From: a virus
Virus record (IMG/VR): IMGVR_UViG_3300032213_001373
Span: 1-64,000 of that record
Length of the DNA stretch: 64,000 nucleotides
Strand: one strand, 5' to 3'
The translations under genes were made by a program, and so were the position numbers. Every line of letters begins with the position of its first letter. Position 1 is the first letter of the stretch. The notes beneath the pieces were generated by a model. That model was not told the DNA's origin, searched no databases, and saw only the letters and a program-made list of their open reading frames with translations. Positions 16,972-22,871 of the stretch are shown here, piece after piece.

Positions 16972-17139
16972 ATGTTTGATGAAGATGAGTGCTGCACTCC
17001 CCTACAAGAAGCAGCCACAGTTATAGCCAAGCATCTGAGTGAGTTCTATAACGACCGCTCTCATAAAGATGAGATACCTACTTGCATAGTGTGTATGTCT
17101 TTCTTTATGGGAACACAGAACGCAGATAGTTTGGCGTAA
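16972..17139 (+). CDS. 55-residue protein of unknown function
   Basis: Good start: AGGAG 7 bases before the ATG at 16972. The protein begins MFDEDECCTPLQEAATVIAK, continues with a helical stretch and has CIVCMSFFMG near the end. The paired Cys (CC and C-x2-C) could bind metal. It is separated from the next gene by more than 400 bases of structured DNA. Confidence 0.65.
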   Translation: MFDEDECCTPLQEAATVIAKHLSEFYNDRSHKDEIPTCIVCMSFFMGTQNADSLA

Positions 17140-17482
17140 TACACCAAATCTTCCCCGCGAAGTCTTGAGATGGACAGAGGGCACACTGAATAGGCTTTTG
17201 ATTATCACCGAGAACGAGGAATCTATGTGGGTGTAACTATTATCATAGAGGGGGCGTGAAGAAGCGAAGTAGTACGGACTTGGGTGCTGAGGTATCCAGG
17301 GGGCGATAGTTACCTGCCCAAGTAGGAGTGGTGTATGTAGTAAGAGACGCGACCGAGACTGCATACGGAGTGAAGCAACGCAAAAGAACTATGGCTGTGA
17401 GTCTCACGATAATACCTTTAGTAATTCAGTGTGCCGTCTGTTCATCTTAAGATGATTAGTTTTTCTGACGGGATAGGGGAAA
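17140..17482 (+). other. Non-coding stretch with foldable elements
   Basis: 343 bases without a convincing gene; only very short frames of 17-19 codons. A nested stem is visible: ACTTGGG (17278-17284) with CCCAAGT (17317-17323), enclosing AGGTA/TACCT (17290-17294, 17311-17315). CTATG/CATAG arms lie upstream around 17224-17248. It runs up to the terminator at 17483, so the transcript of the 55-residue gene would carry it as a long 3' tail, or it may be an independent small RNA. Confidence 0.4.
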
Positions 17483-18019: not shown

Positions 18020-18263
18020 GTGCATCAAGTATGTGTACAAAAACTATGCCTATTGTTATGCGTGTAATTACATACAAGAGGGTATGGAATTATCTCCCGA
18101 AGAACAGCAAGAACTAACTGAGTCTTTAAATAGAATCAGTTGTAACAGTGATAAGTACATTGATTACTTAATGAGACAAGCCCCCGGTGTCTCAGAAAAG
18201 CCTGAGGTTAGGCTAGAGAAAGCCATCAATTACAACAGCCCGTTGATTGATGAAGAAGAATAA
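17958..18263 (+). CDS. Cysteine-rich unknown protein
   Basis: 101 residues. The AAAGGAA site 4 bases before the ATG supports the start in spite of the 62-base overlap with the previous gene. KCATTECIKYVYKNYAYCYA then C (C-x5-C...C-x2-C) suggests a small zinc site in the first half. The second half is acidic and helical and ends in DEEE. Confidence 0.6.
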   Translation: MPSNKYIVRDYSHKPKCATTECIKYVYKNYAYCYACNYIQEGMELSPEEQQELTESLNRISCNSDKYIDYLMRQAPGVSEKPEVRLEKAINYNSPLIDEEE

Positions 18264-18447
18264 TTCCTCGAGAAGGGGATACACAGTAACGACCAAGGTA
18301 ATCCCACAATGGATAACAGCCGGCCCTCTGCGCTCTAAGCGCAACGGCTTAGGTGTAGACGCTTTCTACTTAAATGTTACTCACGCCTATGGGTGGGAAA
18401 GTGCTGTGGTTGGTCTGACGAGACCTGAGGTAAAACACGACCCGTAA
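18250..18447 (+). CDS. Possible small basic protein
   Basis: 65 residues beginning MKKNNSSRRGYTVTTKVIPQ, with GVDAFYLNVTHAYGWESAVV further on. It overlaps the previous gene by 14 bases and lacks a clear ribosome site, so it would depend on coupled translation. The tail (VGLTRPEVKHDP) looks less protein-like. Uncertain. Confidence 0.4.
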   Translation: MKKNNSSRRGYTVTTKVIPQWITAGPLRSKRNGLGVDAFYLNVTHAYGWESAVVGLTRPEVKHDP

Positions 18448-18524
18448 GCATCGGGACATACCTGCTTCCTCACCTGAGCAAGTGAAGGCTAAACTGCTCA
18501 CCTATTCAAGATTGGAGGTTTGAA

Positions 18525-18647: not shown

Positions 18648-18957
18648 TACTCCCGACTAAGAGTTGTTAGTTCGCCTGTGTAGATTTCATCGTCTATACA
18701 GGCACGTGGGCAGAGACATAATGAGTGGCCAAGAGCCGAGAAGGATCATTAGTATGAAGTGCCTTATCTGTTGTAGGTTAGTCGGGTATCCCGTGGGGAA
18801 ACTACTCCCGACTTAGCAACCACTCAAAACACTAGAGACTAAATGCGTTTGCTGTTGACAGCGTTGCCTCGGGGTAACCCACGCAACGCCGAGGCTAGAG
18901 TCAGGATACCGTTGACAGTGGCGTCTCTGCCCACACCCTACAAGAGAAAGAAAACAA
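18648..18957 (+). promoter_or_regulatory. Structured intergenic RNA with alternative pairings
   Basis: 310 bases with no sure gene; a 31-codon frame at 18721 and a 63-codon frame at 18843 have no good ribosome sites. TTAGTCGGG (18778-18786) can pair with CCCGACTAA (18652-18660, 9 bp), enclosing the hairpin at 18674. Its 3' part (18780-18786) can instead pair with CCCGACT (18807-18813, 7 bp). The two pairings exclude each other, as in a two-state RNA switch ahead of the genes at 18958 and 19088. Function is inference. Confidence 0.45.
18674..18703 (+). ncRNA. Repeated hairpin, copy A
   Basis: An 11-bp stem (18674-18684 with 18693-18703) and 8-base loop. It aligns base by base with 19401-19430 (copy B), and the differences in the stem are compensatory. 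ACG follows in both copies. Confidence 0.55.
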
Positions 18958-19110
18958 ATGGCTGGAGTAAAAGTATCAAAAGAGACAGCTATGACCATAG
19001 AGGAACTCAAGAAGCAATTGTTTCTTGCTATTGAAGTCCTCAATGGTTTTACAGAAAACGAAGCAGAAAAGAACTGGGAGTGTGAAAATGGCAAATGCAA
19101 ATGCCAGTAA
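18958..19110 (+). CDS. 50-residue protein with cysteine tail
   Basis: MAGVKVSKETAMTIEELKKQ, then LFLAIEVLNGFTENEAEKNW and a C-terminal CENGKCKCQ. The ATG at 18958 has only a weak AGAGAAAG upstream. The helical body with a C-x4-C-x-C tail looks like a real small protein. It overlaps the next gene by 23 bases. Confidence 0.55.
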   Translation: MAGVKVSKETAMTIEELKKQLFLAIEVLNGFTENEAEKNWECENGKCKCQ

Positions 19111-19348
19111 GTTATCTCACGTCTACAACCCGTGGGGACCAACCATCATCGACCACGGCGATGGGATGATTGAACAAGTCATTGATGATAAGACAATGTG
19201 GCACCCATATTGTGATCCGGAGAACCCACTCACCAACGCTGAGTATCAAGCAGTGTGGGATGAGGATGCTCTCTTATGTTTCCAATGTAAACGCTTCTTG
19301 GATTCAGAAGAAAATATGGTAAAAGAACTTACACGTGAGCGGGAGTAA
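19088..19348 (+). CDS. Unknown protein with possible zinc site
   Basis: 86 residues from ATG 19088, which has GGGAG 8 bases upstream; the longer frame from 19025 would be buried in the previous gene. It includes VYNPWGPTIIDHGDGMIEQV, TMWHPYCDPEN and LLCFQCKRF. One His, the YC and C-x2-C could form a zinc ribbon. Function unknown. Confidence 0.65.
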   Translation: MANANASKLSHVYNPWGPTIIDHGDGMIEQVIDDKTMWHPYCDPENPLTNAEYQAVWDEDALLCFQCKRFLDSEENMVKELTRERE

Positions 19349-19400
19349 CTAGGTTACGAAAACTCACCTCGTAGGCTGCTAGCCGTCAGACAATACGGCA

Positions 19401-19430
19401 GCCGGTGTGGATGTCATAGTCCACGCCGGC
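19401..19430 (+). ncRNA. Repeated hairpin, copy B
   Basis: An 11-bp stem (19401-19411 with 19420-19430) and 8-base loop, 48 bases upstream of the gene at 19478. It is the same element as 18674-18703. Stem position 4/27 is T-A in copy A and G-C here, position 9/22 is A-T there and G-C here, and two further pairs differ by wobble-compatible changes. Confidence 0.55.
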
Positions 19431-19477
19431 ACGCAGGTCGCCAACACAAACATCGCGGCGCCGGCAGAAGGGACAAT

Positions 19478-19762
19478 ATGCTAAAACGCAAACTAGTGAG
19501 CAAAATAGAGCGCATGATGGTAGAGCAAGAGCTCGAAATTCATGACCTCGACTCACAACATAGTAGGGCGTATCACACGGGCATCATCGATGGCCTAGGT
19601 ATGGCTCTCTTTGCGCTATCCCCAAAACGTGCTCGTCGTAATCCAATCAGTATCGTATGGTTTGATGAAGATTATGATGAACCACGTCAACTAGAACAAC
19701 ATCGTGAGACTGTATTTGATGCGGTCAATGAATCGTTGTTTTCAACAGCGGAGGCAAAGTAA
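19478..19762 (+). CDS. Unknown helical protein
   Basis: 94 residues. The N-terminal half is a long charged helix (KLVSKIERMMVEQELEIHDL), followed by HTGIIDGLGMALFALSPKRA, then an acidic segment. AAGGGA stands 7 bases before the ATG. It is immediately followed by the next gene without a gap, so the two are probably co-translated. Confidence 0.65.
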   Translation: MLKRKLVSKIERMMVEQELEIHDLDSQHSRAYHTGIIDGLGMALFALSPKRARRNPISIVWFDEDYDEPRQLEQHRETVFDAVNESLFSTAEAK

Positions 19763-20464: not shown

Positions 20465-20939
20465 TTACACAGGTGAGTTTGTACAAACCATCTATGTTTC
20501 AAACCACGACCCAGAGTTATCTGCGATGGCAATTCTTTCTGATAAGCAAATACCAGAAAGTTTTGTCCAGTTGTCAGAGAAAAGCAAGTCATACAAAGAG
20601 TGTGTACTAGCACACCTTCTATTAAAAGTAACTAATCACGATGAGTTATTAGATACTATGTGTTCTTTCATGCGTTCTGCTCCTGAGGGTGGAACAACTG
20701 CTAAAGTTATGACTGAATACGCCGCATCAATTGCGTTTGCGCTTGAGCACAAGGACCTAGCAATTGACATCATCACACGAAACCAACCATCTGAGGTTGG
20801 CCCACACATCTGGTCCTTAGTTAGTGCAATCAAGAAAGGTATGCCAGGAGTTATGTATCAGTCATTGCTGACATCTAACTTACATCTAGCATCTACCGAG
20901 TGGGATCAAAGCAGAGCTGTAGTGATTAACTCACTATAA
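20448..20939 (+). CDS. Unknown α-helical protein
   Basis: 163 residues. It contains ECVLAHLLLKVTNHDELLDT, TAKVMTEYAASIAFALEHKD and GPHIWSLVSAIKKGMPG, an arrangement of helices that resembles the C-terminal helical part of DUF4192 proteins such as the one at 25655; this is only an impression. The gene ends right before the large structured RNA region 20945-21411. Confidence 0.6.
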   Translation: MSRQVNYTGEFVQTIYVSNHDPELSAMAILSDKQIPESFVQLSEKSKSYKECVLAHLLLKVTNHDELLDTMCSFMRSAPEGGTTAKVMTEYAASIAFALEHKDLAIDIITRNQPSEVGPHIWSLVSAIKKGMPGVMYQSLLTSNLHLASTEWDQSRAVVINSL

Positions 20940-20944
20940 CAAAC

Positions 20945-21119
20945 GCCCCAGTCACATCACGTCTGCACTGGTATGAATCCAAACTATAAGTAGACAACAT
21001 CGCTCACCTTTAAGGGAGTATGTCTGTTTACTTTCCCGGGTGATTACCCCTTCGTTGATGGGTGTGACTGGGGCATCAAGTTTCTTGTACGGTGAGAAAC
21101 ATCACCCTAAATACTTGAT
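20945..21119 (+). ncRNA. Large closed RNA fold in a 504-base gap
   Basis: 20945-20958 pairs with 21061-21074 over 14 bases with one wobble, closing a domain of about 130 bases. Directly after it, ATCAAGT (21075-21081) pairs with ACTTGAT (21113-21119), enclosing GGTGA/TCACC (21091-21095, 21102-21106). There is no open frame of useful length. It could be a stable small RNA, a riboswitch-like leader of the ATPase gene at 21444, or both. The part between 21120 and 21278 shows no clear gene or strong stem. Confidence 0.5.
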
Positions 21120-21278
21120 CCGACCCAAGCCGGAACGCAAAACAGTAGCCCGTTGAGCAGATGCCCGAACGTGACTTAGTTAGTCCGCCTGAGCGCTGCC
21201 GCGAGTAGTTACTTGAGCAAGCCCGTAGTCGCTAAGGTTCCAGCCTCTTTAGGCTTCGTGTGTAAACCATACAAGATG

Positions 21279-21314
21279 CCCCCGGGGTATGCCTTATAGG
21301 TATAACCCCGGGGG
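21279..21314 (+). terminator. Perfect 10-bp GC-rich hairpin
   Basis: CCCCCGGGGT (21279-21288) pairs with ACCCCGGGGG (21305-21314), followed by A/T-rich ATTTATAAATT. It could end the transcript that carries the RNA fold 20945-21119. Confidence 0.6.
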
Positions 21315-21339
21315 ATTTATAAATTACGAGGGCAATAGA

Positions 21340-21411
21340 TTTCCCAACAAATCGTTGGGAAACTATCGGCGTGTCCCATTGACTAGCCGATAGTGCTATC
21401 ACTACGATAGC
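21340..21411 (+). promoter_or_regulatory. Three back-to-back perfect hairpins before the MoxR-type ATPase gene
   Basis: TTTCCCAAC/GTTGGGAAA (21340-21348, 21354-21362), ACTATCGGC/GCCGATAGT (21362-21370, 21386-21394) and GCTATC/GATAGC (21395-21400, 21406-21411). They follow one another with no spacer and end 32 bases before the ATG at 21444, which is preceded by GGGGTAGGAA. They probably form a structured 5' leader or protein-binding array controlling the ATPase/VWA operon. Confidence 0.55.
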
Positions 21412-21443
21412 AAACGAATCCACATACCGAGAAGGGGTAGGAA

Positions 21444-22871
21444 ATGGATATCGCTATATTCACAGAGTCGTACGAACCAATTATGGGTGCTAAGCGCCGT
21501 CAGGTTCTAATCACACCACACGGTGACAACGTACGAATCTATTCACGCAACACTGACGGGACCAAAGGTCCACACAATAAGTGGGACGAAATTGATCTCG
21601 ACAGTCTCGTGGGACAGATCGGTGCAGGTGAGTGTCTTACACGCACACCAGTCGGCGTATATGTTACGTCAGCAGATGAGCGTGCTATGACAGACAAGGG
21701 TTACTCTCCTGTCCTTGGTACCAAAGCGTGCCAGGCTCACACCAAAGCAACCGTATCAACAGACCCAGTGCTTGACATCATCTATGAAATCTATAGCCGA
21801 GTCGAACAGCGTGACGCCACGCTTGAAGACTACGTTATCGATGGACGTCGTCAGCCAGGTTCTGTAGTGCCGGTTGTAACTGCTCCAACACAAACAATCG
21901 CACAGCCAGCACCACAACTTAACCAGGCTGCATTGGATAAGTTTGAAATCCAACTACCAGCAGCTCCGGTGTATGCAGCGCTAGCGTCAGTGCCACGTAA
22001 AGAACTTGCTGAAAAGTATGTTCATCGTCAGATTTGGAGTCGTGATGACTTCGAGATCTTTGACTATGCTCGTAGTAACAGCATTAACGTTCTTATCTAT
22101 GGCCCTACCGGTCCCGGCAAGACAACCTCTGTCGAAGCCTGGGCTGCTGAGCGTCAGCTCAAGTTAGCAACCGTATCTGGTAACGCAACTATGGAACCTA
22201 GCCAAATGTTTGGCAAGATGACAATGGTTGACGGCTCCTGGGTATGGATTGATGGTCCTGTAACTGATGTAGTTCGTAATGGCGGGGTTCTTCTCCTTGA
22301 CGAAGTTAACTTCATCAACCCTAAGATCTACACAGTTCTGTATTCATTGATGGACGGTCGTCGTAGCATCACGCTCCTCGATCATCTTGGCGAGACTATT
22401 CAGGCTCACAAAGACCTGACTGTATACGCAACTATGAATCCAGACTACATCGGTACAACACCACTCAACTTTGCGTTCCGCAACCGTTTCGACATCCAAA
22501 TCCCTTGGGACTACGATGACAAGGTTGAGAACAAGTTGGTTGATTCCAAGTCATTGTTGGCATTGGCTCGTCAGCTTCGCGTTGAAGCTGCTAAGGGTCA
22601 GTATGAGACACCAATCTCAACCAACATGCTCATGGAGTTCCATCAGTTCGTTGATGCATTGGGCTATGAGTTCGCAGTTGAGAACTTCATCGCTCACTTC
22701 TCTGCTGATGAGGCTGCATCTGTGCGCCTTGTCTTCCAGACATTCGAACACAACATCAAGTCTGACTTTGGTATCGAGATTCCAATTGTTGTAGAACAAC
22801 AACCAGAATCTAAATCACCAGACGAGAAACTTGCAGAGTGGGCGGGTCAATTCGCTCCTGTTAATGTCTAA
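21444..22871 (+). CDS. MoxR/NorQ-type AAA+ ATPase
   Basis: 475 residues. Residues 1-190 form a poorly recognisable N-terminal domain with a Pro/Gln-rich linker (about 150-180). The AAA+ module has Walker A GPTGPGKTT at about 220-228, Walker B VLLLDEVNF at about 282-290, a sensor-like YATMNPDYIGTTPLNFAFRN and RFDIQIPW, as in MoxR/CbbQ/NorQ proteins. These ATPases remodel partner complexes and are normally encoded beside a VWA-domain protein, exactly as here, 11 bases upstream of the gene at 22883. Inference: the pair forms a chaperone-like machine acting on a phage or host target. It is preceded by an unusual row of hairpins. Confidence 0.88.
   Translation: MDIAIFTESYEPIMGAKRRQVLITPHGDNVRIYSRNTDGTKGPHNKWDEIDLDSLVGQIGAGECLTRTPVGVYVTSADERAMTDKGYSPVLGTKACQAHTKATVSTDPVLDIIYEIYSRVEQRDATLEDYVIDGRRQPGSVVPVVTAPTQTIAQPAPQLNQAALDKFEIQLPAAPVYAALASVPRKELAEKYVHRQIWSRDDFEIFDYARSNSINVLIYGPTGPGKTTSVEAWAAERQLKLATVSGNATMEPSQMFGKMTMVDGSWVWIDGPVTDVVRNGGVLLLDEVNFINPKIYTVLYSLMDGRRSITLLDHLGETIQAHKDLTVYATMNPDYIGTTPLNFAFRNRFDIQIPWDYDDKVENKLVDSKSLLALARQLRVEAAKGQYETPISTNMLMEFHQFVDALGYEFAVENFIAHFSADEAASVRLVFQTFEHNIKSDFGIEIPIVVEQQPESKSPDEKLAEWAGQFAPVNV

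Follow-up and report, generated by a model that had tools for sequence, protein, structure and literature searches.

Two tRNA-like minihelices in 5' leaders of a phage transcript, one adjoining a structured RNA, as probable cut sites for tRNA-processing enzymes

The window analysed here comprises 64,000 nucleotides of a viral sequence (IMG/VR record IMGVR_UViG_3300032213_001373, positions 1 to 64,000) and is part of a 102,327-bp (102-kb) phage record. It contains two short hairpins with their flanking structures and open reading frames (ORFs), arranged as follows.

18649 to 18673, plus strand: H-type pseudoknot abutting hairpin 1, assigned by score and ortholog topology; stem 1 is ACTC (18649-18652) with GAGT (18661-18664), the loop pairing GACTAA (18655-18660) with TTAGTT (18667-18672).
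18674 to 18703, plus strand: hairpin 1, GCCTGTGTAGATTTCATCGTCTATACAGGC-ACG; a 12-bp minihelix resembling a tRNA acceptor (7) and T-arm (5), with the 6-nt loop TTCATC.
18704 to 18706, plus strand: tail A-C-G of hairpin 1, the A at the tRNA discriminator position; putative tRNase Z cut after 18704.
18706 to 18934, plus strand: C core, a structured RNA of about 230 nt, defined by covariation and covariance-model search; P1, 12 bp (18706-18717/18923-18934), P2 (18722-18728/18820-18826), P3 (18780-18786/18807-18813) and a covarying pseudoknot (18861-18865/18885-18889 with 18866-18871/18890-18895).
18958 to 19110, plus strand: 50-aa ORF beginning 23 nt past the C core, conserved in relatives with 51-70% identity.
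19343 to 19400, plus strand: leader upstream of hairpin 2 with the motif GGGAG..GAAAACTC..CCTCGTA, recognised by eye.
19401 to 19430, plus strand: hairpin 2, GCCGGTGTGGATGTCATAGTCCACGCCGGC-ACG; a 12-bp acceptor/T-arm-like minihelix with the loop GTCATA.
19431 to 19433, plus strand: tail A-C-G of hairpin 2.
19433 to 19465, plus strand: leader stem behind hairpin 2, GC.GG.CGCC (19433-19442) with GGCGCCGGC (19457-19465).
19478 to 19762, plus strand: 94-aa ORF headed by hairpin 2; its homologs in several relatives are headed by the hairpin with or without a C core.

The two hairpins were found exactly at the positions given in an earlier note on this DNA. Both folded as perfect 12-bp stems with a 6-nt loop, T12.G19 being a wobble. 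The compensatory exchanges reported for pair 4/27 (T-A versus G-C) and pair 9/22 (A-T versus G-C) were confirmed, together with the wobble-type differences at pairs 6/25 and 7/24. The loop motif TCAT, described as kept, was indeed common to both copies, but across the relatives only its T-C was invariant. The pair were the sole such sequences, and the sole gap-free minihelices of this type, in the whole record. As a control, 982 kb of unrelated phage loci contained two twelve-bp hairpins with an ACG tail, neither of them with a [TG]TC loop. A search with a degenerate DNA pattern of the hairpin alone was discarded; it returned 120 stretches, nearly all of them stemless chance matches.

The relatives of the window phage, all of them metagenome contigs, were reached via the ATPase gene at 21444, giving 26 loci of one phage group (numbered with the prefix L below). 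The gap-free hairpin alignment comprised 13 orthologs from 12 contigs, with 11 distinct sequences. In this alignment 99.2% of 132 cells were standard pairs and both-side changes occurred in 8 of the 12 pairs; none of 500 shuffles matched its paired fraction or its covariation score, and when registers were slid along it the paired share fell to 20-49%. Invariant across the orthologs were only G1, T6, the loop T-C, C30 and the tail A-C-G. The earlier note had proposed, from the two window copies, that the folded RNA is under selection. Two copies alone are weak evidence; the 11 distinct paired orthologs settled the point, and neither outcome that had been named as speaking against the proposal, a lack of copies in relatives or changes that break pairs, occurred.

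Both window hairpins are dyad-symmetric and intergenic, as would also be expected if the repeats were DNA palindromes (operator sites) or transcription terminators and not RNA elements. However, the conserved U.G wobbles at pairs 6/25 and 12/19 are possible on the sense RNA strand only, and folding of the reverse complement is about 6 kcal/mol less favourable. Both points speak against a DNA palindrome, as does the conservation of loop and tail on one strand only. Against a terminator, no T-run follows the hairpins (tails ACGTGGG and ACGCAGG) and they were absent from the terminator-scan list. We consider this explanation highly improbable.

Column for column, hairpin 1 aligned with the T-arm plus the 3' acceptor strand that tRNA-like structures have in the distant relatives L148, L142 and L145; the 5' acceptor strands of these structures were located as well. 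The tRNA-like structures, and an example of a minihelix from a second locus, are given below.

L148, position 8745: GCCAACG-41 nt-ATAGG-TTCGATT-CCTAT-TGTTGGC-ACG
L143, position 4537: GTGCATA-49 nt-GAGGG-TTCAATT-CCCTC-TATGCAC-ACG
L141, L142 and L145: GCCTGTG-67 nt-GAGGG-TGCAAAT-CCCTT-CACAGGC-GCG
Second-locus minihelix: GTGCCTA-GTAGG-TTCAACT-CCTGC-TAGGCAC-ACG

ARAGORN called a tRNA for none of the tRNA-like structures in these five relatives. At the second locus L134, L135, L138 and L139 carried gap-free, 100% paired 7+5 bp minihelices with canonical 7-nt T-loops (TTCAACT, TGCAACT), and the tail was likewise ACG. This tail was the commonest among the 12-bp hairpins of relatives (19/305) and was also present in the real tRNA-Met genes of L141, L142 and L145, which lie directly 5' of a conserved noncoding element, B. 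Full or near-full scans of 7 genomes showed gap-free minihelices to be confined to these loci. Because of the alignment with tRNA-like structures, the gap-free second-locus forms and the common ACG tail, we read the window hairpins as 7+5 bp acceptor/T-arm minihelices, and their mimicry of a tRNA arm is well supported at the sequence level. The window hairpins and their orthologs have a 6-nt loop keeping [TG]TC, whereas the fuller tRNA-like members have the canonical 7-nt T-loop; the window loops retain T-C but fall short of the complete T-loop consensus, and ACG takes the place of CCA as the 3' tail. ARAGORN found no complete tRNA cloverleaf with an anticodon arm in the window or the remainder of the record, and Rfam gave no tRNA match in the window. 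A tmRNA (tRNA-like domain plus tag reading frame) was rejected, ARAGORN and Rfam both being negative, and so was a loop-loop contact UCAU/AUGA, as the loop AU varies among relatives. The relatives keep apparent intermediates between tRNA-like structures and minihelices, and, subject to the root of the tree, the direction of change was likely from the fuller structure to the minihelix.

As a separate observation, the pyrimidine-rich 'anticodon' loop of the tRNA-like structure in L148 (8745-8820) contains TTCTCCTTT, a perfect complement of AAAGGAGAA, which serves the WhiB-like gene 3' of the C core as ribosome-binding site (L148 8993-9015). A shorter match of the same kind was seen in L143.

The C core showed both-side changes in 13 pairs, holds strongly conserved unpaired stretches and varies in size from about 170 to 245 nt across loci. 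A covariance model of the C core without the hairpin found 15 loci at E <= 6e-11, among them L141, L145, L143 and L148, which were outside the model and were yet found with E-values of 5e-22 to 6e-11. Directly 5' of each of the 15 C cores stands either a minihelix (10 loci) or a tRNA-like element (5 loci). The interpretation in the earlier note did not extend to the tRNA mimicry, to the adjoining C core or to the upstream pseudoknot. A C-core pattern scan gave 13 matches, all within the same phage group, with one added contig, L156. Of the pattern matches in a separate collection of genome contigs, the model scored L163 and L164 no better than chance and did not match L165 or L166. The C core was not found in the phage collection (by sequence) or in four cultured phages (by model). 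Rfam release 15 gave no credible match at gathering or relaxed thresholds, and its covariance models for GOLLD and ROOL did not match. The C core is an RNA family backed by covariation that Rfam release 15 does not contain. GOLLD and ROOL are likewise structured phage RNAs with unassigned function, often near tRNA genes, and GOLLD env-38 lies downstream of a Met-tRNA (PMC12286853); the C core differs from them in its size, in lacking an Rfam match and in adjoining tRNA mimics.

Two other assignments of the C core were rejected. A group I intron was suggested by GAGACTAAATG.. AGAGTC, but the candidate P7 pairing breaks in L144 and Rfam gave no match; a small ORF within the C core is contradicted by large insertions and deletions there among relatives. 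The hairpin inside P3 (18789-18799) has the loop AUG in relatives and GUG in the window, always a start-codon triplet. In L141 (8741-8990) and L145 (8735-8984) conservation of the C core is limited to its 5' half, unrelated sequence standing in place of the pseudoknot half, and P1 still pairs.

Structure was also found on the flanks of the minihelices. For the pseudoknot of hairpin 1 a score of at least 9 was reached in 0.8% of shuffles. In 11 of 13 orthologs the stretch directly preceding the minihelix can form an H-type pseudoknot. It occurs in three versions that are unrelated in sequence: ACTC/GAGT with GACTAA/TTAGTT; ACCG/CGGT with GACTAG/CTAGTC; and ACCGCA/TGCGGT with CCATCA/TGATGG or CCATCT/AGATGG, the last two differing by a compensatory change. 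The ortholog scores were reached by 0-1.4% of shuffles, figures that do not multiply freely since the orthologs are related. By the criteria used hairpin 2 has no pseudoknot. On the 3' side, each minihelix is followed, behind the tail A-C, by a stem. Among 8 short leaders, 7 have a stem that begins one base past the putative cut and closes about 12-15 nt before the start codon, a layout shown by 4-8% of dinucleotide shuffles. The leader stem of hairpin 2 leaves the ribosome-binding site free.

All elements found are situated in 5' leaders, about 40-50 nt before an ORF or, where a C core is present, up to about 270 nt before it. This position, together with the near-contiguity of pseudoknot, minihelix and P1, which could stack, and the conserved unpaired stretches of the C core, would also suit a tRNA-like hairpin that stays uncut and forms one structural domain of a leader acting in cis (pseudoknot, minihelix and C core or stem), binding a protein, a tRNA-handling enzyme or a ligand and controlling translation of the next ORF. 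Yet the minihelix is constant while the downstream ORF changes (the 18958 ORF, the 19478 ORF, a WhiB-like gene, a 174-aa ORF), and real tRNA-Met genes hold a similar place before element B. We regard such a leader as unlikely. A minihelix serving as a tRNA decoy or a protected 3' end, cut at its 3' side only, so that it stays attached to the upstream RNA and perhaps receives a CCA, could stabilise that RNA or titrate tRNA-binding factors. Several tRNA enzymes are known to act on minihelices (PMC11221534), an A-C tail is in keeping with the 3' end of a tRNA, and the pseudoknot upstream would be stacked on the minihelix. The strict association with downstream stems and ORFs, however, suggests a role for the 3' product as well, and the fuller tRNA-like members have no such 5' pseudoknot; this second alternative seems to us quite improbable.

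Hairpin 2 represents the element without a C core, a short leader being followed by the 19478 ORF, for which no PHROGs match and no Pfam match above cut-off was obtained. The same layout, likewise without a C core, was found in L125, L126 and L133. The sequence CCAACACAAACA behind hairpin 2 corresponds to the sequence behind the C core in relatives, and its leader motif is common to hairpin leaders in L129, L133, L136 and L144. Hairpin 2 therefore most likely sits at the ancestral C locus, which would have lost its core, and the hairpin at 18674 would be an extra copy. In an ATPase tree, midpoint-rooted and with long branches, the window was placed beside L125-L127, which have the hairpin only. 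The 50-aa ORF, downstream of the C core in the window, lies upstream of it in relatives, a local rearrangement.

The way in which phages define their transcript ends has seldom been established. The hairpins probably mark cut sites of the cell's tRNA-processing enzymes in a long phage transcript. RNA-level conservation, minihelix geometry, positional kinship with tRNA-like structures and the flanking stem and pseudoknot can be read from the sequences themselves. The 12-bp (7+5) acceptor/T-arm-like helix is what is expected of a t-element, and so is a place at the end of a structured RNA or mRNA, here given by the position relative to the C core and the ORFs. We favour, with somewhat better than even confidence, phage t-elements, that is tRNA mimics read by RNase P and/or tRNase Z that set transcript ends. 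Host RNase P would cut at the 5' edge of the minihelix (18673/18674 and 19400/19401) and/or tRNase Z at the 3' edge, behind the A (18704 and 19431), and a long polycistronic transcript would be divided. The 3' product would begin C-[stem], the stem being P1 of the C core for hairpin 1 and the small leader stem for hairpin 2, with the ribosome-binding site left accessible. At hairpin 1 the 5' product would have the pseudoknot as its end. Both new ends would be structured and difficult for exonucleases to attack. If true, this lineage has the host's tRNA-maturation enzymes do its cutting and marks the sites with a tRNA mimic about as short as is possible, a strategy known from plant mitochondria and haloarchaea.

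Cleavage, the enzymes and the stabilisation of the products are inferred. By analogy with the minimal RNase P substrate and the Haloferax t-element, the phage elements would divide the transcript and leave structured ends; this analogy, like the anatomy, is strong. Bacterial RNase P efficiently cuts a 12-bp acceptor/T helix as a minimal substrate (PMC11221534), and a Haloferax t-element lies before 5S rRNA, where the tRNase Z cut makes the 5S 5' end (PMC4326828). Haloarchaeal (Haloferax volcanii, before 5S rRNA) and plant mitochondrial mRNA t-elements are likewise tRNA-like and stand immediately in front of a structured RNA or within an mRNA leader; RNase P and tRNase Z read them or are proposed to do so (PMC4326828, PMC4368725). 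In contrast to these, the present elements belong to a phage, are reduced to a minihelix, abut a pseudoknot and leave a stem on the 3' product, with cleavage predicted. The model RNase P minihelix substrates MD1 and pATSer have the same continuous 12-bp acceptor/T helix (PMC11221534), but are laboratory constructs (the 3' end of MD1 is GCCA), whereas the phage hairpins are natural, with ACG and a 6-nt loop. C4 antisense RNA and M3 RNA are non-tRNA phage transcripts processed by the host tRNA enzyme RNase P (PMC11143913) and are comparable by the proposed type of processing; here a repeated cassette in 5' leaders is concerned. On a wider view, to which we give even chances, the lineage would have turned tRNA genes into punctuation, in a series from tRNA-Met over tRNA-like structures without a normal body to bare 12-bp minihelices, set in a cassette pseudoknot-minihelix-A-C-stem that host enzymes cut with both ends protected, release of the C core being one use.

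The host of the window phage is likely an actinobacterium, because the neighbouring CobT-like gene points to phages of Gordonia and Brevibacterium as the nearest cultured ones (about 30% identity) and WhiB-like genes occur behind the element: a Pfam match identified such a gene 3' of it in L129 and L148, and L141, L143 and L145 have similar predicted N-termini there. The element was absent from the searched region of four cultured Gordonia and Brevibacterium phages, the nearest found, and a distant blastn search of the phage collection gave no credible relative. It is missing at the corresponding position in L131, L132, L137, L140 and L147, and is therefore not essential to the family.

Further conserved stretches were noted nearby. 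Element B (window 18259-18518) is noncoding, with up to 90% identity over 100 nt in relatives, and 17136-17450, outside assigned genes, is 82-90% conserved in several of them. The intergenic region before the ATPase gene (20939-21444) folds far better than shuffles (z = -8.5), has a closing arm of 12 nt, GCCCCAGTCACA/TGTGACTGGGGC, and is in parts about 70-75% conserved in relatives; it is possibly another structured RNA.
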